Part shown: in pieces, positions 16,255-53,676 of the stretch
How the letters are laid out: each line of letters starts with the position of its first letter
How positions within the stretch are numbered: position 1 is the first letter of the stretch
DNA from: Chiua virens
Lineage: Eukaryota; Basidiomycota; Agaricomycetes; Boletales; Boletaceae
Length of the DNA stretch: 64,000 nt
Direction of reading: 5' to 3'
NCBI GenBank assembly: GCA_019787685.1
Contig: JAHNUO010000041.1
Location: 62,001 to 126,000, forward strand
Notes under the pieces: generated by a model
Told to the model about the DNA's origin: nothing
The model's database searches: none
Seen by the model: only the letters and a program-made list of their open reading frames with translations
Program-made: the position numbers and the translations under genes

Positions 16255-17040
16255 CGGTCGCCAACGTTGTCGTCTTGTCCGAACCTTCAGATCTCGACGG
16301 CGAAGGTGATTCTGCTTTCGTTCGCCAGTCTCGTGTCTCCTAGTTCCTGGCCGAGCGCAACTTTGTTTTGCCTGTGCACGACAGATTTTGGGGCTGGATC
16401 GAGCTGAAGAGAGAAAGGAATTTATTCTCAACGCTCGTGTTAGATACATTGAAAAACACACAGCTTGTCATTTTGTTCGCCTCCGAGATCTCTTGCGTCG
16501 GTGCTCTTTTGATTCTTTGTGTGTTTCTGGTATTGTCTCGGTATCTACACGAACATCTGAATTGGCTTGGCTTCCACACAAAAGACGAGATGACATGAAA
16601 AGCGCGAAGACACACCGCAGTGTTCACGTCGTCTTTCCCAACGAGGTGAATTCGTTTGATGAAGCGTAAGGTCCCAGTGTACACATGAATAAGTACATGA
16701 ATCGTAAACCAAGTTCTGCGCCAAAAGCGACATGCCCTGTGATTGCGAATAAAAGGGGCTTGGTGAACTCTGAATCTTGAAATCTGCTATTAAGAAAAAG
16801 CGCGAAAAGACACGAGGCGAAGGAAACGTGGTCATAGAGCAACTTTGCATGTCGGCGTAAACTGAGTCCCTTTCTCCTTGGCGCCTCAAACTTTACAGCG
16901 TGGAGGGCCGTGAGATGTTAGTGACAATCTGGATGGGAAATAGGTCGCTTGTGGTACGCAAGAAGAGGGGAGCATTTGATGTCGAGTTGCACAAAGAGTA
17001 AGTCGGTCCGGCTTGCCAAAGGAAGGCACGAAGTCACCGT
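16255..17040. other. Intergenic, nothing recognised
   Basis: Holds the 5' flank of the minus-strand glycosyltransferase copy and short unconnected frames on both strands. No RNA, repeat or gene recognised. Confidence 0.3.
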
Positions 17041-17049
17041 GGGAAGAAG

Positions 17050-19640
17050 AGATACGACGATGTGTCCAGTGGACAGAGTCGCTCAGCTTCTTGGACTCTC
17101 AATCGCGATCCTACCCTGAGCAAATCACACCACGTCCAATGGCTCGTCAGAAAAGGCGAGACCTGCACACAATATGACCCCGCAGTGTACTTAGACTGAC
17201 AACTCTCTCAGGTCGTTCTCCATAGTGATGACGAAGAGCGGAACATTTTGGAACGGAAGCAGACGCGCAGCGCCAGCAGATTGAAGGTGCCGAAGGCGAA
17301 CCGCTCCCGTTGCAAGTCAATTCCACGGCCTGGTTTGAGGGCGAGTAACAGGACGCTTGGTGGGAAGAGATGTGGTTGACTTGGACAGATTCGAACCCCA
17401 AGAGTAGGTACATTATAAGTCTCTCATCACGACTGACATGGTCGCTTCTAGGTCCTGAATCTCTCTCGCTCGACATCACCCTTCCTAGCAACCCCCGTAT
17501 CCATATCTACGGCATTCCTGAGTCCACCACTCACCCTCCACGACTGGTCCGGACATTGCTTACTCGGACCCTTATCAACTGTACAACTCTGACGGGTCAA
17601 ATACCTCGGAGATTCTCCCGTCGCCGTGTTCAATGCCGGTGATCGGCAACAATATGTAGATCAACATCGGAAGACAAAACGACACGGAGGCACACTGGAT
17701 CGATGAAGCTGACATTCTTGACGTGTTCATTCTCCTGGTCCAGACCCTCTCTGTGTCTTTTCTCTACGCGTGCCTTATGGGGACACCCACACCTCCCCGT
17801 TGTACTCTATCACGTATCACCAATGTCGCTGGATTATGTCAACAGTCGATATGCGGGGTGTATTGAAGCGGTTCAATGAAGCGAACATGGACGTCTTTTG
17901 GCTCGATATCGAGTATTCCGGTGGACACAGTACTTTATGTGGGACGAGAAAGCGTTCCCCGACTCGGTCGAGATGCTTGCAGACGTCGAGGGCAAGCAGC
18001 GAAAGGTGCGGTTTAATGTTCGGAGTGTTGATGGGTCTCAATAAGACACGGACAGAGGGTCATTATCATCGAACCCCATCTCAAAGGCGAGTCCGACTAT
18101 CCTGATGGCGTCTGATCTCGGTGTGCTTATGAATCCCAAGTTGGGTGAAGGTGAATACGGGGTAAGTGGTGCCTTCGCTCTGACGCGTCGCGACAACCGA
18201 TATGCGTATCTTAAATAGGGTTGATCGAATATCCCTCATGGATCGACTTTTTCAACCCAAATAACTGGGATTTGTGGATCAAATCATCTAAGACCAAGAG
18301 TACCGATGATCCATGAGCATAGACGCAGAGTTCAGAGAACGTGGGTATCTGGAACAACACGAATGTGGTTTGTCGCCTTTCCAACTTTTTCTTTCCGATT
18401 TAGAGCTCAAGGTCTTTCACTGCAGCCTTCGGTGATCAACGGTCCCGAGATCTTGATACCAAGGAATACCTTGAAGTGCTATGGTGGATGGGTGCACCGA
18501 GATGTGCATAACATTGAAGGCATGCTTTATGTAAGTGTCCCCATCCGTCCTCTGGATTTTACTCACTGCTGCACTCGTCTTATCAGGCCAATCAAGCCTA
18601 CGTCGTCTATCACCGTTCGGACTCTCCCAAACGCCCCCTTGTGTTCACGTGTGCCTACTATGCCGGTATCCGAAACTTCGCGGCTATGTGGGCTGGCGAC
18701 AACCTGGGCACATGGGAACACGTGGGACGAAGAGTGAAATGGTTCTTTTAATGGGCTCGCTGGAGTGGTATTTGCAGGATGAACGTTTTCTGTGCTACAG
18801 CTGGCATTTCTAACATGTCTTCTGAATCCTCGTTGGTAACTCGGACTCCGAGATGCTTGCGAGGTGGTACGGCATTGGTGTATTCTCGTCGTTCTTTCGA
18901 GCACATAAGCACATCGACACGAAGCGCCGCGAGCGGATGAGTCATACAAGGGTATGATCAAAGACGTCTTGAAGTTTAGATTCACGTGGTTGCCGATTTG
19001 GTGCAATGCATTCAGGAGAACATTGACGGGAGTACCCATCCTCCGGTAGGTCTCTTCAACGTTGTTTGCAGAACGAGTTTAGTGCTGATGCGCATTCGTG
19101 ACGGCTAGCTCACAATACGTGCTGTTGCCCGAGGACGAACAAGGCTTCGGAATTGGATCAATTTTATCTCGGTGACAGAGCGAGGCGTGACTATTTCTCA
19201 TACGCGGCCTATCGTTCATCCACGTCCCAAACTACTGACTGGACCATCACCGTCCCATCACCGCCCCAGCGGTCATACTGATCCCACAGACGGTACGGGC
19301 TTCTCGTCGACACACGGTCATCGCATTGCTCAGTGTCCTTGGGATGATGTACATGCTGATCCCGATAACGGAACCAGTACGCGAGTCGGTCGGCGGTGAT
19401 CAGGACTAGTGTGTCGATGGATCTACAGCCATTGGACGGGCACGTAGTGGCTGGAGTGCGGAGGGACGGCTGCCGTTGATAACTGGGTGCGGTGGTACCT
19501 GATACCGTTTGAGTGTTACACAGTGGATATGTCAATGTGCCGCGGGTCAAGGTGGTTGATCACCGATACGGGTCTCGAGAGGGAAGGTGAGGTGGTGGAC
19601 GTGCGATTTCAGCGTTAGAGTGACTTCATCTGCATGACGG
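17050..19640 (+). pseudogene. Glucosidase II alpha subunit (GH31), degraded copy
   Basis: Glucosidase II alpha (ROT2/GANAB type) trims glucose from N-glycans in the ER. Blocks occur in family order across three frames: WLTWTDSNPKS joined by a clean 46-nt intron to GPESLSLDITLPSN (17370-17480); IYGIPEST; SDPYQLYNSD; HWIDEADILDVFILL; YHQCRW; VFWLDIEY; WIDFFNPNNWDLWI (about 18240); NGPEILIPRNTL..GGWVHRDVHNIEGMLY (about 18440-18535); AMWAGDNLGTWEH (about 18690); WYGIGVFSSFFRAHKHIDTKRRE (18864-18933, split by lesions elsewhere); QYVLLPEDEQGFG (about 19110). The nucleophile motif WNDMNEP has decayed to WNNTNV near 18345. Multiple frameshifts and stops make it a pseudogene. Introns remain, so it is not a retrocopy. 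Confidence 0.88.
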
Positions 19641-19783
19641 ACACGGACAGACGGTGTTGGTGTTGCCAAAGTCTTAGTATAGAACGTCGGAACGAAGTGG
19701 CTGAATGATGTTGTGGGTTGTTGACACTGGCTCCCTTAGAATCTTTCTCGTAGTCAACACCGAGCGCTCAGCAACCAAGTACA

Positions 19784-22700
19784 ATGAAAAGGTTCATAAC
19801 TCGCGCTTGTTTCCCGTGCTTTCGCTCCAAGGCTCCCGCGAGATCTTCCGCAGAATCTCTCGCAGAGCCACCCACAGAACCTCTTGCAGAACCTCTCGCA
19901 GAACCTCTCGCAGGAACTTCCGTCGAATTCCTTGAAGAAGCATCTGCGGAACCTCTCGCAGAACGTTTCACGGGGTCTCTCGCAGAGCCACTCGCAGAAT
20001 CACTCGCAGGGACCTCCGCCGAATTCCCTGAAGAATCATCCGCGGAACCTCTCGCAGAACCTTTCACAGAGTCTCTTGCAGAGCCACCCACAGAACCTCT
20101 CGCAGGAAATTCCGCTGAATCCCCTGAAGAATCATACGTGGAACCTGTTCTGCAGATGGATGATATCAGAAAGAAATTCGGGCGCTTCAGAATTCTTATC
20201 GTTGGCCGGGCCAACGCTGGGAAGACTACGATACTTAAGCAAATATGCAACTCTGTGGAAGATCCAGAGATCCATGATGGAGATGGGAATGAGGTATGCT
20301 TGGATGAGATGTCTATGATGGCGGGTGTGTTGATAGTCTGCCATCAGGTTGATCTAGCACAGATCCAGGAATCCCGAGACGTGAGTCAAATGGTTACTGC
20401 GAAGTCCTTGCCAGTAACATTTTTCTAACATGTCTCAAGCGTGGAATACATCATATCAAGAATGAATTGGTCTTTCGAAGCAACCCAAATTTTATTTTTC
20501 ATGACTCGCAGGGCTTCGAAGCTGGAAGTATAGAAGAATTTGAACAGATGAAGGAGTTTGTCTCCGAACGTGCAAAAACCACACACCTCAAGGAGCGAAT
20601 CCATGTTATCTGGTAATGAGAGATAGCAGCATTTATGCCACACTAACAATGACATGTCACTGAATAGGTACTGTATTCCAATGGACCAGTACCACCGGTC
20701 TGTCTTGGCTGCGGAGGAAAGGTTTTTCAGTGAATGTGACACTGGGAGTGGTAAGTTCTCCTCATGTATGATGTCTTTTTTTCTCATACTATTTGCAGTG
20801 CCAGTGATACTTGTATTCACAAAATGTGATGCACTTCTGATACGAGGCATGGCAGCCTTGGGACCTGAGGAAGAAAAGCTTTCCCGAGATGAAAGGATTG
20901 TGATTGGATGGCAGAATGCTGAGAGAATGCTGAAAGTGAATCCTGCATGGGAGAGTGTGCAAAAGATGATGTATCCACCAAATGCATATGTGGAGTTGAG
21001 AGGTATGTATGTATACATGTCTCTTATGGTCAAACTGATTTAAATGTACAAAGAACTGCACAAGTCAAATGAGGGGTGTAAACTTCTCTTGAAAAGAACT
21101 GTGGGGGCCTTAGATGAAGAAGCATTGCAGATGCTGCTTGTGACTACACAACACACCAACATGATGCTTTGCATTGAGTTTGCTTTTAGAAGGTAATTTA
21201 TATGGATTTTATGGACTATGGGTACATTTATTAATTTATTAATAGGGTCCTGATACCTCTTATTCAGGATATACATGAGAGTAAGCAACCACTGGCAGAT
21301 TCTGCACAGCAGATATTGGTGAAAGGAATTGGGTCATGGTTTCCACATGTTGAGGTGTGTGAGTTTCTATGTAGTGCAAATGAGATCTATGATAAAAGAA
21401 CTGCTTGTCCTATTCATGAAAGGTAAGACATTCTCATGATTGCAAAATGAGTTTCCAGAAAGATGCTTATCCATGCCCCTGTCCTGCCATTCATAGGGAG
21501 TAAGTGCTCTGATTGTGAATGGGCTTCCAGAAGGATGCTGATCCATGCCCCTCTGTCCTTGCCCCTGTCCTGCCATTCATAGCCAGTAAGTGCTCTGATT
21601 GTGAATGGGCTTCCAGAAGGATGCTGATCCATGCCCCTCTGTCCTTGCCCCTGTCCTGCCATTCATAGTATGTAAGTGCTCTGATTGTGAATGGGCTTCC
21701 AGAAGGATGCTGATCCATGCCCCTCTGTCCTTGCCCCTGTCCTGCCATTCATAGCCAGTAAGTGCTCTGATTGTGAATGGGCTTCCAGAAGGATGCTGAT
21801 CCATGCCCCTCTGTCCTTGCCCCTGTCCTGCCATTCATAGTATGTAAGTGCTCTGATTGTGAATGGGCTTCCAGAAGGATGCTGATCCATGCCCCTCTGT
21901 CCTTGCCCCTGTCCTGCCATTCATAGTATGTAAGTGCTCTGATTGTGAATGGGCTTCCAGAAGGATGCTGATCCATGCCCCTCTGTCCTTGCCCCTGTCC
22001 TGCCATTCATAGCTTGTAAGTGCTCTGATTGTGAATGGGCTTCCAGAAGGATGCTGATCCATGCCCCTCTGTCCTTGCCCCTGTCCTGCCATTCATAGGG
22101 AGTAAGTGCTCTGATTGTGAATGGGCTTTCAGAAGGATGCTGATCCATGCCCCTCTGTCCTTGCCCCTGTCCTGCCATTCATAGCCAGTAAGTGCTCTGA
22201 TTGTGAATGGGCTTCCAGAAGGATGCTGATCCATGCCCCTCTGTCCTTGCCCCTGTCCTGCCATTCATAGGGAGTAAGTGCTCTGATTGTGAATAGGCTT
22301 CCAGAAGGATGCTGATCCATGCCCCTCTGTCCTTGCCCCTGTCCTGCCATTCATAGCCAGTAAGTGCTCTGATTGTGAATGGGCTTCCAGAAGGATGCTG
22401 ATCCATGCCCCTCTGTCCTTGCCCCTGTCCTGCCATTCATAGGGAGTAAGTGCTCTGATTGTGAATGGGCTTCCAGAAGGATGCTGATCCATGCTCTGTC
22501 CTTGCCCCTGTCCTGCCATCCATAGTATGTAAGTGCTCTGATTGTGAATGGGCTTCCAGAAGGATGCTGATCCATGCCCCTCTGTCCTTGCCCCTGTCCT
22601 GCCATTCATAGGGAGTAAGTGCTCTGATTGTGAATGGGCTTCCAGAAGGATGCTGATCCATGCCCCTCTGTCCTTGCCCCTGTCCTGCCATTCATAGCTT

Positions 22701-23803
22701 GTAAGTGCTCTGATTGTGAATGGGCTTCCAGAAGGATGCTGATCCATGCCCCTCTGTCCTTGCCCCTGTCCTGCCATTCATAGTATGTAAGTGCTCTGAT
22801 TGTGAATGGGCTTTCAGAAGGATGCTGATCCATGCCCCTCTGTCCTTGCCCCTGTCCTGCCATTCATAGCCAGTAAGTGCTCTGATTGTGAATGGGCTTT
22901 CAGAAGGATGCTGATCCATGCCCCTCTGTCCTTGTCCCTGTCCTGCCATAGCTTGTAAGTGCTCTGATTATGAATGAGCTTCTGGAAGGATGCTGATCTG
23001 TGCTACTTGTCATGACTTCCTTTATAATGTTTACCATAGCTTGTATGTATTCCACTCCATTCCATACCATTGATTATTTTAACATTCTGTAGGATGTGAG
23101 TGTTTATGTGCACTTTTATTTTCAAACATTTCAATCCCCTATTTATTTCAATTCATTAGCAGGTATGAGTATTTTCACTTTTATTTTCACTTTATTTGAC
23201 TTCTGTTTTATAGCAGGTTTGTAATGTGTTGAATTGTTGCAATGCAAATAATAACATCAACATCATAGATATTGCAGGCTTCTAGTGTATGTTCAACCAT
23301 TCTAGTCTCATAACCTAATTTTTTTCAATTAATTTATTATATTACAAGCCCTCTATTTCTGTTCAACACACACTGGCAAGAGAATGCACATCCATCGTGA
23401 GTACAATAATTTCATAATGCCAGGCTGTCCAATATTTTATTCCATGATTTAGTCTTCTTTGGACAACAGTACTGCATGGCACACAGCACTTCACTTAGGC
23501 ATTGGTTAGTTTTCTGCATGTGAAATTTAGTAACTGCCACTATTAATATTTGTAGAGATTGCCATTATCCTGGAACACTCTTTCTTTTTACACCAGCAAG
23601 GTGTTCAAGACCCAATCATGGCAGCAACCCAGCTTTATGAATCATCTGAAGCCATGCACAAAGTCAAAAAGGCAGTCTCTGAGCTTATTCTTCAATATGA
23701 CCTTGAGGATGGAAACAAAATGACAGAGCTCCTTTTGCACATGATTTCTAAAAATCTTATTTGTAAGTCATTTGCCCTTATGGTCATGATGAACAACTTT
23801 TGA
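19784..23803 (+). CDS. P-loop G-domain protein with N-terminal repeats and a 3-nt microexon array
   Basis: Exons: 19784-20293, 20348-20380, 20440-20612, 20668-20750, 20799-21002, 21054-21192, 21246-21422, then the microexon array, then about 23278-23284, 23349-23396, 23453-23504 and 23556-23803. All ordinary introns are 48-64 nt, GT..AG, and keep phase. Residues about 21-120 are an Ala/Glu/Pro/Leu repeat (AEPLAEP type). A GTPase domain follows: G1 GRANAGKT (141-148), G3-like HDSQGFEAG, G4 FTKCD. This matches the fungal AIG1/septin-like G-domain proteins common in mushroom genomes. The C-terminal domain includes LARECTSI, IAIILEHSFFLHQQGVQDPI and ESSEAMHKVKKAVSEL. A further donor (GTAAGT at 23762) could extend the end by one exon. 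The role is unknown; related proteins are often discussed in non-self or immune contexts, which is only an inference here. Confidence 0.85.
19845..20140 (+). repeat. Coding minisatellite in first exon of G-domain gene
   Basis: Repeats built on a 12-15 nt core (AACCTCTCGCAG and variants) encode AEPLAEP-like steps. Higher-order copies of about 29 residues, ending in GTSVEFLEE, GTSAEFPEE and GNSAESPEE, recur three times. The array stays in frame, so it is translated; copy number is likely variable between strains. Confidence 0.8.
21423..23277 (+). repeat. Tandem array of introns separated by 3-nt microexons
   Basis: Starts with a 74-nt intron (21423-21496) that is a diverged relative of the unit. 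Triplet positions then follow: GGA 21497, CCA 21583, TAT 21669, CCA 21755, TAT 21841, TAT 21927, CTT 22013, GGA 22099, CCA 22185, GGA 22271, CCA 22357, GGA 22443, TAT 22526, GGA 22612, CTT 22698, TAT 22784, CCA 22870, CTT 22952, CTT 23040, GAT 23093, CAG 23160, CAG 23214. The first 18 triplets are separated by 17 near-identical introns, 83 nt each except one of 80 and one of 79. Every intron has GTAAGTGCTCTG at its 5' end, TGCTGATCC as branch-like motif, a C/T tract and a CATAG acceptor. The last introns (85, 50, 64, 51 and about 61 nt) differ in sequence but keep the 3-nt spacing. Exon 7 ends in phase 2; 22 triplets plus a 7-nt exon (23278-23284) restore phase 0. Confidence 0.85.
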
Positions 23804-26518
23804 AACTATATTAGCTATAAATGTCACTAAGTGAAATAGTGACTCTTACAAGGCCTACAATGTGCTTGCATGTACTTCAGTAGAAATATAGTATGTTGAG
23901 TTGTCTTGGAAACCACCCCACTGGGATGTACTAGTAGTTGGAGACCATACCAAGCCTGAAGTAATTGTAATCACAACTTAAAGGCAGATTTCTAGGCCAA
24001 ACAGCAATGGTAGATGATAAGTGTATGCCACTGATCAATCCATTCCAGTACTGGAGTTAAAATCTACATTTCTTCTATGTCGACCAAGGGTATCATTGGG
24101 AACTGAGGCAGTGTTACCCCTGAAAGACAGTTGAATGTTATACAACAGGCAGCACTTCAGGGGAGTGCTAGCATGTCGAAATCATGCCAAAAAAAAGCTT
24201 GCTGAAAGGGTTGCAATATCCCCAGGAAGGTCTTCTAGGATGCAATAAACATTACCTAGGATGGAACAAAGAAAAGTAGCCGTGATCAAACTTTTGATTG
24301 AAAACTTACAATCGTGATACCGCTTCTCGCCCAACGGCAATTTGGAAGCCATCGGACCATGTTTACTCAGGCGTGGATAGATCCAAGTTACCTGCCACCC
24401 CTGTGGCACTAGGTCCCATCTGCCATCATGATGTGACTGACAAAACATTTCAGCTGCTCACCAGTGCTTCCATATGTCTATCATCATCGTTTTGTCTCAC
24501 AAACTTGAACGGACCTCCGACGGATAATCGGAAAACGAACAAGTACATAGTACGACAGCTTCCGACTCAATGTAACGTCGTCTACCTCAAGTGCTAACTG
24601 ACAATCCGAGCCTGTCACCACCCAGGCGAATATTTTCACGCCCTCCGTCTCATCCTATTGTCGGAGATGCGCTCGATGACAACAACCCGACGGCCTTGCA
24701 AGTCGCAACTGTGTCCCTTCAATAGAACGCTCAATCTCACCAGGGAGATAACACGACTGGAAGAAAGACACACCTCCCCCAAACCTAAAGTCTGTCATTA
24801 TTGAAACCGTAATTTTTATTTTGAGACCGCATTCGTTCCATTGCTCATTGCTTCATGTCGCAAATTATTCATAGAATTACTTGGATTGTAACAACCAAAC
24901 CGTCGCGAGGCTCTGAATTGTTTCGTATTTCGTGATACTTACATTTTCGTGGTTCCTTGAAGGTTGCTACATCCAGGTCCCAGGACAAAGTCTCAGAGTG
25001 AGTGCACAGGAGCTAACCCCATTGGCAAGAACACTTGAATAACGGCGCCACCAACGAACACCGCATTGAGACGGGTTTGTACCAACACAGGCAGGTGTCT
25101 TTAATCTTTATCGTGACTCCACTGCTCGATGAGGCCCATCGATAACACAGCTCACGTGGAGAGCGGCGAAGGCCTCTCTCAGCGACGTTTTACATAAAGT
25201 TTCATGAGGCGCGATAAACTTCGGAGGCCACGAGGTGCAATCGGAGCGAAGTGTCCAGTAGCCTGATCATGGGACCTAGCAACTTCTGGTGGTCGTCTCA
25301 CTCGTGCATCTGTTCTTCACTGTTATTCCGGTGAATTCGGTTCATGATCGTATATCCGCACATTCGCCGACCCACTTTTTCTTTCTTTTTTTCTCTTGGT
25401 TTGAGCCTGTGACCGCTCACCGAGCTGAAAATAATCGGTCTCGACCGGCCACCGATGATTAGTCACTAACACTGTCATACCTCACTAGCTGGAGCACCCT
25501 CCTGAGGCCCGACAACCAGCGATTGTACCGCATCCCATCGCCTGACATTCGCGTTGAAAATTCCCCTCAAGCTACCGAGCTGTCGCAGGGGGAAACATTG
25601 TTTGAATCCCTCGGGGTAGTCTCACCTTCCAGCCTGAACCGGGATCAATGATCACCTCGGCCATATATTCCGCTAATTTCCACCGGCGGCCGGCGATGGT
25701 ACATTTCTGATGTGACACATGTGCATGACGTTTTTTTTTCTTCTTCCACCATCAATATCAGATTGGGGTTGGCAGTTTCAGGGGGGGAAATAGAAATTAT
25801 CTATTTGCAAGTTCAATGAAGCGTTCCATCGCACGTGCACCCCAACAACTTTGATCTAGGGAATCAAAGTGCCTACTCGCGCCTGCTCTCTTCTCGAGCT
25901 GTCTGCTAACATTCGTCTACCTGAGCGGGAGCAACGTTTTCGATCGCGTAATACAGCATGTTATGATTCAGAGATTGCGTGGTCTCCCTCAAATTCCTAC
26001 GTATACATGCTTCGAACCGCGAGAACCCCGCTCACCTCGTGTGAGCTCCAGTGGGGTTTATACGCGGACGTATCAGAATAACTCGCTCTAAAAAGCAGTC
26101 TTCCCATTTCGCTTCGCCTACTTTACAACCAAACGCATGAAAACAAAATGTCAAGTGTGGCGTGGGGAAAATATGCCTCTACAGTAACTAGATACGTATA
26201 ACTATATACAACAGCCAAAAAAAGTGGTATCAATCGTTGCTCGAGTCGGTGAACGTGAACGAAGGGGAATGTATCACAGAGCCAGGCTCTGGCCTGACGT
26301 TCGTCAATGAGGATATGGGAAGGAGATTATGTTACAGTTTACAGCTGGGGGAGTTCCTTGGGGTTGAAACGTAAAAATACACCTGTTAACTTGATGATTC
26401 AGAAAAGTCGCACGTCCGGACGGTCGAGGGAACCAAAAAAAAATTAAATAAAGAATGCGCAGAGGAAAAACCAAGTGGCCGGATGAGCGCGGAACGGCGC
26501 GGATGCGGATGATGTGTG
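23804..26518. other. Intergenic interval
   Basis: No supported gene. The first about 400 bp keep the A/T-rich style of the neighbouring gene. Short frames at 24182-24448 (-), 24298-24597 (+) and 25869-26081 (+) show no recognisable domain or intron pattern. The stretch 26090-26500 is the 3' flank of the HMG-box gene. Confidence 0.35.
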
Positions 26519-49366: not shown

Positions 49367-50984
49367 TCAACTTGAGAGCGCCCTCGATGCCAGAATATGA
49401 AAGTACCATTTAGCACATCGTGGCCCTCGACCATTGGAACTCCCACAATAGAAAATGACTTTCTTTGTGTCTTTGTGTTCTTCGTAGAATTTGGCTAGAT
49501 CGTCATAGAAAGTCTGGGCAGGTCGCTGGATGCTTCCGCGGACATGACCTCCCTGTTCCATCTTGTTACCCTTTGTATTATACAAAAGTGATAAGACACC
49601 TACTGTATGGTCGTCGCGCCTTACGTCAACCACGACGAAGTCTTTCTTGCCAAGTTCGGGATTCCTGATGAGATCCGCGACCTCTCCGCACTCCAGACTG
49701 CTCGGAGAGGACACCGGAGCCGGATACGCGTCCCACCAGTTCTTGAGAGCGGATTTTGGTTCGGGGTCGGTGGGAGGAAATGAATTGCTCTTCGTAGCAT
49801 ATATTTTGTACGACTCTGCTGCAATGTTGGCCAATGTAAATCATTTATCAACTGTGCGCACTCACTGGCCCATTCGTTCAAATCTCCAATATCACCTAAA
49901 CTGAATGACTCTCCCGTTCCACAACATCCGACAGTCCCGTAAACATTAAGGTCAGCAGGACTCTCGGTGAACAAGATCTCTGCCAATAAATATTGTCGAT
50001 CACGGATAACATCGCAGCTTCCAACATGACCCACCTCTGAAGCCCGCTTCCTGCATCACTGCTTTATAGTCTTCAAGAAGGATGGCACCGGAAATACAAC
50101 CAATATACGCCGCCATATTAGACCGCAAGGAATCCGGGAATTGTTTCTTGGCTACAATCTGTCCATGTGAGGGTAGATGCATGAGAACGCCGTATATAAA
50201 CTGGTTCTGACTGGGACTACATACGTCATCGAGGCTAACACGACCTCCAGGCTTGAGAACGCGATGCATTTCCTGCATCACCTTGAGTTTCCCTTCGGGT
50301 GGCAATAGGTTGATGACACAGTTGGACAGGATGCAGTCTACCGAATCGCTTTCGATCGGCAGATCGTCGGTCAAGACCGCCTTGACGAATGAAACATGAG
50401 GTGGATTCAGACCCTTGGCCACAGCATTTCGTCTAGCGCGGGCAATCATATCCTATAGCGACGTTGGTCTCTAAGATCAGCACATATTCCAGCGACCGCG
50501 ATTCGAACACACCTCTGAGTTATCTAATCCGATGACCTGTCCAGTCGGACCAACTTTGGCAGCGGCAAGAAAGACGTCTATGCCTCCACCGGAACCTAGA
50601 TCAATTACCGTCTCACCCTATTTACGATAACGAACATGCACAGTAAGTGACAATGGATTGTGAATGTACCAATGACAACTCGAAGACGTTCCCTTACCTC
50701 CTTTATCGACGCGGTCGCAACAGGATTTCCACAGCTCAATCCCATGTGTGATTCGGATGGGACTGTCTGGAGCTCTTCGGCGCTATATCCAAACGCATTT
50801 GCCACGCGATCGGCATCTGGGAGTAGTCAGGCATCAATGTAAATTCTCGGGCGTTTAGCGGGGTGATCAACGTACACGTTTGATCTGCACTTTCTCGGGC
50901 GATCTTGCTGTATGCATCGTTGACGACATTGATAATGTTCGTACCGTCGCTTGGGAACGTTTGTTTACAACAGGAAGAACTCAT
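49367..50984 (-). CDS. Arsenite methyltransferase fused to a rhodanese/arsenate-reductase-like domain
   Basis: Eight exons from ATG 50984, with introns 50875-50817, 50697-50618, 50512-50453, 50224-50159, 50034-49980, 49865-49819 and 49603-49554; all are GT..AG and in phase. The methyltransferase part has [21 protein letters not shown] motif [33 protein letters not shown], and GCISGAI, with Cys residues at the positions expected in ArsM/AS3MT enzymes that methylate As(III) using SAM. After [15 protein letters not shown] the frame continues through a 47-nt intron into a rhodanese domain: [27 protein letters not shown], and the loop CGSSNGR (C-X5-R) GPRCA, as in Cdc25/Acr2-like arsenate reductases. 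The combination would couple As(V) reduction to As(III) methylation. The terminal residues after CAKWY are atypical. Cytosolic. Fusion in the transcript is inferred from splice phase. Confidence 0.85.
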
Positions 50985-53676
50985 AGTGAAGGATACAAAG
51001 TTGACAATGCCGATCGTCACTCAAAGGCACTTGTTATATGTCGCAACATGAGTACTACATATGTTGAGAAGTACTTGATATTGGGCTTTGTAACGCATCT
51101 GACTAAACCTACGGCATGTTTCTCACAATCACCAATCATTAATCAGGCTCATGGGAAGTCAAGCTTAAAGTTTTGGGCCCTGGCAGGCACAATGAGTCGT
51201 CCAAAAATATGTCGACATACACGTATCATTGTATAGTAGGAAATTCAGACGTTTTTGACTTGGGATGCGGCGCCGGTTGACTCAGCTATCTATCGGTCAC
51301 AAGTAGCATGACGCCATTAAATAAGCTCTTGAGACAGAAAAGACGTGCTCGTCCTGATGAGGAGACGCGGCAGGAACATGTACACCACCAGAATAGCACT
51401 GCTTTGACTTGTATCTTTCCTGACCGTTGACAATCTATCTTCAGTGGGGACAGTACGAGATATTGGCACCTCTAACGGCGAGTGCCGCTACAACTGTTCA
51501 TTAGCACGAGTAAAGACCCGAAGGCAATGATCACTCACCTAGTAAGTATATGAAACTCAAATGACACTAGAATTCACAGATGATCTTTTTGGTCTGAAGA
51601 TCGTTCTTCATTGCGAGTCGGCGACCTTAGCATGAAGCACATCAAGGTACTGTACAATCAACCCACCATCAGAGGTGATTCAACTAGAACTCGAGTTCAC
51701 CGTTTGTACGTCGACGCCGTACACACTTATCGCACATGAAACGGTGGGAAAGTGGATGCGGGGAAAACAACGAGCGGCTCTTCCTTGACAAGCGTCGAAA
51801 CTGGTAAACGTTAGACAAGAACGAGAACACCAACACCAACATCAACATACTGACTTAGAGTGCCCGAAAGCACCGCCTCAACATTTTGAGGGTATCTGTT
51901 TGGCGGGATCGATGGTCAGTAGTATCCGGTATTACGATGGTCCTTCCAAAATCCGTCTTGACGTCCTCCAGGGAGTGCCCAGTTCCAGACTGGGCATTTC
52001 GGTGCGTCGAGACTTTGTTACCGTTTCCCTTTCGCGAGTATAAGGTAACCTCCATGGGTATCGTGGGTATGGGTATCGTAGAGGTCGCGGGCATCATATC
52101 AGCGCCAAGTTAATCAATAATTGTGCGAGGAAACGGTAAGATGTCTCGAATAATCTCGAGGTTCCTGACCGTCGAATTGCGGCTAAAAAATGTTGCTCAG
52201 ACGGCGGAAGACACCGAGAGAATTTGAGTAGTCACCATACATATTTTGCCAGTAATGATTAAACCACCCGATGAAGTTGGGGCTGCGAGTGCATCTTGAA
52301 CAACTTGACGCATGCTGACCTCGTGAGATGACAAGACCCAACTAATGGCCCTCGATTCCTGCACATAGACACCACGTTAGCCATATGTACGACTGTAGCT
52401 CGGAGGGCAAAGCGAAAGGGTGTGCCACCTCTGCCGTCTTGGCGCTTGTTGTCAGCTGAATGACCCTTGCTTCCCGTGTCGCATCCTTTGTAGCCTAGCC
52501 GACGAAACCAATGCTGGCAGGGCCACCTTCTTGATCACGGTGGCTCCGCCTGCAGGCCAGTCAGCTACGAGGGTGGGCTACGTACGGGTAGCCATGGTCC
52601 TTGTCGCCGACCGACTGCTAAAACTTGGCATGGACGGGCTTTCGAGCGATCGTTGTAGCTCTTGTCATCGTAAATCGCATCTTGTCAACCCTGGTGGCGA
52701 GTTCCTGGTTCTCTTCTTGTACGAGTCCGTCTCTGCGCGGGCGAGGTCTCCGTATTGGCTGTGATCTTCTGAGAGCCGTACGCTATCGCAAGAATGGCTG
52801 ACTTGTCTCGTAGGTGCTTGGATGTTCCAGCTGCGGGTGCCACTGACGATCCTCTGAGGATGACGAAGACGAAGACCGACGGCGTCACGGCAACATGAAT
52901 GACAAGTGCAACAATAACCAACCAGCGTGACCAAACAAAATCGGTGGACGGTTGCACCACGGCAATGGTAAACGTCGTTGCTCGTGTGTCGAGTCGCCGG
53001 ACGGCGTCGAAAGACCGGGGATCGATGGGAGCCAGAGCAGACCAATAATGTGATGAATGTGAACGCGAAGACACGCGGAGCGACTGGTGACGGGACAAGA
53101 TAGCAGGGACTCGGAGAAAGGAGAGCGCAGAGAAAAAGTGGACATGGAAGGAGAAAGAAAGGAACTGGGGATCATCTTGAGATTGCGGTCGCCGTCCTTA
53201 TAAGCGTTGGTGATTGAAGTTCGGGCTGCACGTCAGGCTAGTCAGTCGCCTGATTGGCAAATGAATCTGAAATTGAGCGTCATACACCCAATCTTTGACC
53301 CCGTCTGATCCAGTAACCCAACAACATCCAACACTCCTTCGACGCAGCGTCTTCCAAATGGGCCGATACTATGTCAAGATGAATGGGACGAAGAATGAGA
53401 ATGACGAGCGGAGTTTACTGTACTAAATATATTGCACTCATTCATTCCGCTGACCTCGAAACCTTTTTTCTCTGCCGTTGCTCGTAGCCAAGAGTTCAAG
53501 ACACATTCTCCTCAACATTCAAGAAATTGTCTCAAAGTTTCGCATGTTTGGTTATAGCTACCAACGTTACGTGCGTAATGTCACCTATTTCGATACCGAC
53601 AGCCTGAGTGCCGCACGGGAGGCCGGGGTAAGTACTCAAGCGAGCACACACCGAACGCGGTTTGGCAAATTCTACA

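Follow-up and report, generated by a model that had tools for sequence, protein, structure and literature searches.

Candidate arrays of single-codon microexons in a GTPase-like gene family of the bolete Chiua virens

The NACHT-ANK (nank) genes of the truffle Tuber melanosporum (Iotti et al. 2012) form an expanded family in which, according to secondary descriptions, genes carry from several to tens of microexons of 3 bp each; these undergo alternative splicing and diversify a C-terminal or sensor region (PMC3689799, PMC4986451, PMC9815663, PMC10197012). For fungal NLR proteins (Podospora nwd/hnwd), the relevant sections of two of these accounts describe WD, ANK, and TPR repeats of high internal identity, with a few hypervariable sites and exchange within and between genes (PMC4986451, PMC9815663). 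Schistosoma micro-exon genes (MEGs) encode secreted proteins from exons of mostly 15 bp (range 6–81 in the text, 3–81 in the abstract), separated by introns of 100 to almost 5000 bp, as outlined in PMC10526429. An excerpt on Trichoderma Xlr2 states that functional microexons were previously undescribed in filamentous fungi (PMC11121469), and the word microexons occurs in the text of a paper on Phanerochaete P450 genes (PMC1184071). No basidiomycete microexon array was found in the literature searched, mostly without subscription papers. We analyzed a 64,000-nt stretch (the window; contig C41, positions 62001-126000) of the 48.3-Mb genome of the bolete Chiua virens, which contains a homogeneous tandem array (hereafter W) on its forward strand. 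It is likely that W comprises 18 predicted spliced-in single-codon exons, encoding a stretch of variable sequence that follows the G domain and precedes the conserved C-terminus in a GTPase-like protein. A sequence-only reading that had pointed to the array knew of no described system of this kind; that claim falls, since codon-sized 3-bp exons were already reported, in the descriptions cited above, for the truffle genes.

In the window, the 18 triplets, each flanked by TAG and GTAAGT, start at 21497, 21583, 21669, 21755, 21841, 21927, 22013, 22099, 22185, 22271, 22357, 22443, 22526, 22612, 22698, 22784, 22870, and 22952, and form the homogeneous array GPYPYYLGPGPGYGLYPL (21497..22954, + strand) with introns of 79–83 nt between them. 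The triplets and CATAG/GTAAGT signals given by the sequence-only reading are as described; its 86-bp spacing applies to 15 of the 17 intervals, the remaining two being 83 and 82 bp, and its invariant 83-nt intron is nearly so. Among the 15 units that measure exactly 86 bp, pairs differ at 0.0046 per site in their introns versus 0.673 in their triplets. GGA, CCA, TAT, and CTT are the only triplets present. TRF reports an 86-bp unit in 17.9 copies at 21470-22998 with 95% matches. The length of this unit is not divisible by 3; it equals one codon plus an intron and encodes no protein repeat (WD, ANK, TPR). The array also extends further than first thought, continuing in four diverged 3-nt junctions: CTT (Leu, 23040..23042), GAT (Asp, 23093..23095), CAG with donor GTATGA (23160..23162; GAG, AAG, ATG, or ACG in other copies), and CAG with a weak donor, GTTTGT (23214..23216). 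The first array intron (21355..21496), with predicted donor GTGTGTGAG, contains a probable relic unit that has lost its acceptor (CATGA) and kept its donor, GTAAGA, at 21423. Below, L-numbers denote paralogous loci, P-numbers database proteins or open reading frames (ORFs), and C-numbers contigs.

The exact junction CATAGNNNGTAAGT has 1613 matches in the genome versus 45 for a reversed control, or 1718 versus 12 with two mismatches allowed, far more than expected by chance. The exon preceding the array has 55 genome matches (two overlapping), among which 33 array loci were examined: W, 20 others, and 12 later additions. This sample is non-random, with four of the later loci picked for TGA triplets (L029, L030, L031, and L036) and others for distant copies. 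Should C41/C42 and C46/C9 each prove to be two haplotypes, it would represent ~31 distinct genes. An array was present in all 33 loci, with 17–80 triplets each. As to near-identical introns across unrelated genes, the 33 loci belong to one gene family, though all were selected through matches to that family's own upstream exon. A short array of mainly CTT units at 88-bp spacing (C1:3497617-3498094) adjoins no listed match of that exon. Under a parser that allowed exons of 0–9 nt, with a 0.5-point preference for 3 and a reward for AG and GT, 1122 of the 1127 junctions in the 33 arrays had an exon of 3 nt; three of the five others lie at diverged array ends (W, L036, and L038) and two are adjacent in L032. 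Among 11 arrays chosen as diverged, intron length was off the modal value in 191 of 378 cases, yet the exon measured 3 nt at 387 of 389 junctions. Over 1073 junctions (L014, a near-copy of L013, being omitted), acceptors were TAG (1037), CAG (35), and AAG (1), hence all NAG, and donors GT (1069), GC (3), and AT (1), hence GT or GC in 1072, tallies made under the parser's preference for AG and GT.

The reading phase follows from the exons on either side. Downstream, E1 (23269..23286, ILQASS, phase 0) is 18 nt long in each of the 23 loci that yielded it, E2 (23349..23396, PSISVQHTLARECTSI, 48 nt in the window, acceptor AAG) is 45, 48, 51, or 54 nt, always divisible by 3, in all 20 that yielded it, and E3 (23453..23504, SSLDNSTAWHTALHLGI, 52 nt in the window) measures either 49 or 52 nt in all 18; because these lengths preserve phase, the array is in phase 0. 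E4 (23556..23762, 3' end predicted) encodes the conserved C-terminus EIAIILEHSFFLHQQG, also present in P0004 and P0139. E1 to E4 were located by pattern in 29 scanned tails, six of which gave no match at all; in L032 and L034 the scan missed E3 and mis-hit the last exon. Upstream, exon 7 (21246..21354) ends SWFPHVE in phase 0 directly before the array, and its counterparts end HVE, NVE, or NVK across paralogues. A donor stands right after these residues in eight distant paralogues (GTATGT in L029, L032, L034, L038, and L039; GTAAGC in L030, L031, and L033), with in-frame stops just past it in five of the eight (L030, L031, L032, L033, and L039). The same site reads GTATGG in L036 and L037 and GTGTGC in L028 and L035, and L040 gave no clear donor. 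L017-L027 carry 2-nt deletions past the exon end, with resulting in-frame stops ahead of the 21422-type donor. Because of these distant-paralogue donors and deletion-borne stops, we place the end of the window's upstream exon at 21354. The boundary originally proposed, with an exon at 21246-21422, gives the wrong phase, and a splice from 21422 hits a stop in E3. The corresponding donor at 21423 (phase 2), preceded by stops in L017-L027 and absent in L028 and the distant loci, was rejected; it probably belonged to a first unit that has since decayed, the stretch CATGA AAG GTAAGA reading as a unit with a lost acceptor.

With phase 0 set by conserved flanking exons, each triplet corresponds to one codon, and the spliced window model (19784-23762), with every one of the 22 triplets included, reads through 547 residues without a stop. 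Joined triplets read at offset 2 contain 65 stops in 26 of 32 arrays versus 64.4 when shuffled, so that phase is closed; at offset 1, the phase of donor 21423, four stops in four arrays versus 2.7 when shuffled mean that stops alone cannot exclude it. Omission of the whole array preserves the reading frame, as does inclusion of any subset of triplets. The proposal of in-phase 3-nt units is thus upheld, with the phase corrected through E1-E3 and the upstream donors.

The 1039 triplets in 32 arrays are of 35 kinds, with A or T at the third position in 97%; 23 of the 32 G-ending triplets are TGG, the sole Trp codon. Fewer kinds occur per array than in pooled draws (p<0.05) in 23 of the 32 arrays. 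L026 combines 26 introns without one difference with seven codons, and unlike triplets accompany 2510 of 3150 identical-intron pairs. Triplets and intron bodies, whose relative freedom to vary the sequence-only reading had proposed to compare, are far from equally variable in young arrays, and even in the old arrays L013, L015, and L025 triplet sites are ~3 times as different as intron sites. Triplet order seems random in most arrays. Block duplication stands out only in L010 (4-mers, p 0.01) among the 32, with single values ≤0.05 in L012, L013, L017, L027, and L028. Association of triplets with the following intron was matched by at most 12 of 300 shuffles in three of 11 testable arrays (L011, L018, and L025; 17 in L016), and association with the preceding intron reached that level in two of the 11 (L015 and L023). 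For intron sites separated by more than 20 nt, eight of these 11 arrays come close to linkage equilibrium, which L009 (0.072 vs 0.036), L010 (0.036 vs 0.022), and L011 (0.026 vs 0.017) exceed; this weak or absent linkage suggests fine-scale exchange. Phase-0 stops number three among the 1039 triplets versus ~90 by base composition, and the genome-wide counts beside the 1613 junctions are zero for TAA and TAG and five for TGA.

Near-identical gene copies can differ strongly in triplet order and number, the check that had been suggested for paralogues. We compared 70 pairs with similar flanks, of which 30 were listed. Upstream, L026 and L027 are identical at 99.9% of 1410 bases, and downstream at 98.9% of 810; L026 has 27 codons and L027 has 30, and the two series differ for the most part, with a partial likeness. 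Codon likeness was not significant between L017 and L018 (flanks 99.6%, p 0.18), L010 and L012 (98.9%, p 0.75), or L029 and L034 (98.1%, p 0.89). The notion of a cassette-like array thus holds, in that the triplets are not the same from copy to copy and the intron bodies undergo homogenisation. L013 and L014, whose introns are diverged, show 42 differences in 9877 nt with all 48 codons kept; this stability fits the mechanism proposed below, because recombination would there require intron identity and freezing of such arrays is predicted. The contigs C46 and C9 look alike by this same figure of 42 differences in 9877 bases. Two sampled C41 stretches, 33 kb apart, are collinear and equally spaced on C42 at 97%, which makes C41 and C42 probable haplotypes. 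W and L009 may therefore be allelic in a dikaryon, although the collinearity could also stem from a large duplication.

Uninterrupted ORFs of relatives on contigs of 1.1–1.85 kb (seven from JGI, P0101 from lgn) cover 95–100% of the spliced query, P0139 being a fragment that starts inside the G domain. Because the predicted Chiua gene has six introns upstream of the array, these ORFs are probably assembled transcripts. A residue-poor variable peptide follows WFPH clearly in four of the eight ORFs tested (P0004, P0139, P0074, and P0079). In P0139, P0074, and P0079, the protein's least diverse 20 residues start at most 12 residues from WFP; in P0004, G-domain windows are never as poor, although one near the C-terminus is. 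Residue poverty is weaker in P0118 (0.4% of G-domain windows as poor) and P0016 (2.9%). P0004 and P0139 agree at 61% overall and carry 14 and 30 unrelated residues at the variable place, then NLD in both, the LD of which matches the Chiua 3-nt microexons CTT and GAT. P0102 is 94% identical to P0079 up to WFPHLK and then reads differently, as an unspliced copy would.

The 3-nt spacing, the splice signals, phase 0 on both sides, the presence of an array in 33 of 33 loci, and free triplets beside near-identical young introns are read from the sequence itself. The Chiua arrays are probably spliced and translated single-codon exons forming a fast-changing segment that is reshuffled by recombination between identical introns. 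We hypothesize that every triplet would be fully included via intron definition; near-identical introns would supply homology for unequal exchange and conversion, which would homogenise the introns and reshuffle the units, and the peptide segment would evolve far faster than the remaining gene until the introns diverge and the array freezes. The most speculative part is that the segment might act in nonself recognition, a role that has been proposed for the repeat domains of fungal NLRs.

Several observations weigh against this account. In P0017 and P0101, two of the eight ORFs tested, the peptide is not residue-poor; the relatives' variable peptide might come from one plain exon. Some codon order is shared between L026 and L027 (0 of 200 shuffles as good) and, weakly, between W and L009 (flanks 98.6%, p 0.015). 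A 5-nt exon (TACAT) stands next to a 2-nt exon (TA) in L032:1164-1253, so the frame of L032 would break. Most of the total consists of ~16 triplets, which share descent; their units not being independent, stop avoidance is weaker as proof of translation than it looks, and 16 triplets drawn blindly would lack stops ~4 times in 10. Internal TGA occurs in three of the 32 arrays (L029, L030, and L031), with two more in L036 beyond the counted part; copies bearing it may be truncated. No selection appears on recent single-step triplet variants (six synonymous, eight changed, and three stop vs 5.9, 8.0, and 3.1 expected), and a looser cut gives the same result (10, 13, and 3 vs 9.0, 12.6, and 4.4). 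The donor of W itself, GTGTGTGAG, is poor; we infer its use, as well as that of the three AAG acceptors (exons 3, 6, and E2).

Were the interval 21355-23268 a single long intron holding a tandem repeat, with triplets that are never exons, the neutral look of rare triplet variants, TGA included, would be natural; the frame is kept when the entire array is skipped, and the five public Chiua virens gene models examined (P0001, P0002, P0003, P0006, and P0009) stop before or at the array. An intronic minisatellite is nevertheless unlikely: a neutral satellite would not vary at one triplet alone, 3-nt spacing and splice signals persist where introns drift in length and sequence, and relatives carry residue-poor variable peptides at the same place in intronless ORFs. 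If triplets are spliced in, their inclusion might instead be regulated, giving many peptides per gene as in the truffle. Splice sites almost all alike and the freedom to include any subset in frame would suit such a cassette, and the truffle precedent is described, in secondary accounts, as alternative splicing. Short introns favor the splicing of each in turn (intron definition) and so argue against it, and we regard it, and with it the alternative splicing suggested in the sequence-only reading, as a tentative possibility.

Two further explanations concern how codons and introns came together. An introner-like process would have copied identical introns between the codons of an older exon, leaving old codons among new introns. 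Intron identity that ends exactly at the splice sites, as in the difference-free introns of L026, and the slight linkage of triplets to intron variants would fit; an ordinary exon would hardly be so poor in codons and so rich in A- or T-ending ones, and near-identical genes have arrays unlike in codons and length, which makes this origin very improbable. Alternatively, codons might be newly written by a dedicated process between introns that form a fixed lattice, and the genome would then own a generator of peptides that are nearly random, at one residue per exon. Its basis is that arrays resemble random draws from a small per-gene codon set and that introns are letter-perfect up to both splice sites; we hold it to be rather doubtful.

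Upstream of the array, on the + strand, the gene model comprises the predicted exons 1 to 6: exon 1 (19784..20293, within ORF 19754-20428, donor GTATGC at 20294), with N-terminal Glu/Pro/Leu/Ala-rich repeats followed by the P-loop GRANAGKTT; exon 2 (20348..20380, VDLAQIQESRD), supported by splice sites and identical residues in P0001; exon 3 (20440..20612, acceptor AAG) with the G3 region HDSQGFEAG; exon 4 (20668..20750); exon 5 (20799..21002) with the G4 motif TKCD; and exon 6 (21054..21192, acceptor AAG). Exon 7 is supported by paralogue donors and the open spliced model. Exon 1 holds a second tandem repeat (19843-20146) of 12/24/48/96-bp units that underlies the Glu-Pro-Leu-Ala-rich N-terminus. 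Pfam (E≤0.001) places MMR_HSR1 above the cut-off in the Chiua protein, with a sub-threshold G-alpha match; NACHT or ANK matches were found at this cut-off neither in it nor in six relatives. A PDB sequence search (E≤0.001) and an Rfam search at gathering scores over 19500-24500 gave no match. Minus-strand coding was rejected: ORFs of 62–91 aa recur with the period and end in stops (one exception, 170 aa). The early ends of the five public gene models hide the array. The region 17000-19700 of the window recurs (mostly 73–89%) near close paralogous arrays on C6, C8, C9, C13, C24, C26, C27, C31, and C46, so the duplicating segment seems larger than the gene itself. Elsewhere in the window (50000-52500), ~1.1 kb is repeated 4.5 kb further along the contig at 96%.

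If the triplets are spliced in, the genome would contain well over 1000 single-codon exons, a natural stress test of the spliceosome on 3-nt exons, and would allow a clean measurement of the way in which identity among introns drives recombination and diversifies the protein; the early ends of the public models examined would also be accounted for. Chiua would then provide a second, unrelated fungal family in which the constant part of a hypervariable repeat has moved into introns. As in truffle nank genes, there are tens of 3-bp exons per gene in an expanded fungal NTPase-type family, a likeness that for Chiua holds at the DNA level. Unlike them, as far as secondary descriptions of the truffle allow comparison, Chiua is a basidiomycete whose protein has a G domain of the MMR_HSR1 type and matches neither NACHT nor ANK; ~1600 junctions and near-identical introns in young arrays are features to set beside the truffle genes, for which alternative splicing is reported, whereas Chiua splicing is predicted from DNA. 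The Chiua family is accordingly filed as working like the truffle family, not as a member of it. Schistosoma MEGs, as outlined in the source cited, share many tiny, mostly frame-preserving exons and variable proteins with the Chiua genes, here again seen in DNA, and differ in being animal genes with exons of mostly 15 bp, long introns, and secreted products. The kinship in logic with high-identity repeats of fungal NLR proteins, which the sequence-only reading had put forward, stands: judged by the accounts cited, both have near-identical tandem units with hypervariable sites, in Chiua within young arrays, the old ones having diverged introns. In the NLR repeats, however, the constant part is protein, whereas in Chiua it belongs to the intron, and each unit would contribute no more than a single codon to the protein.

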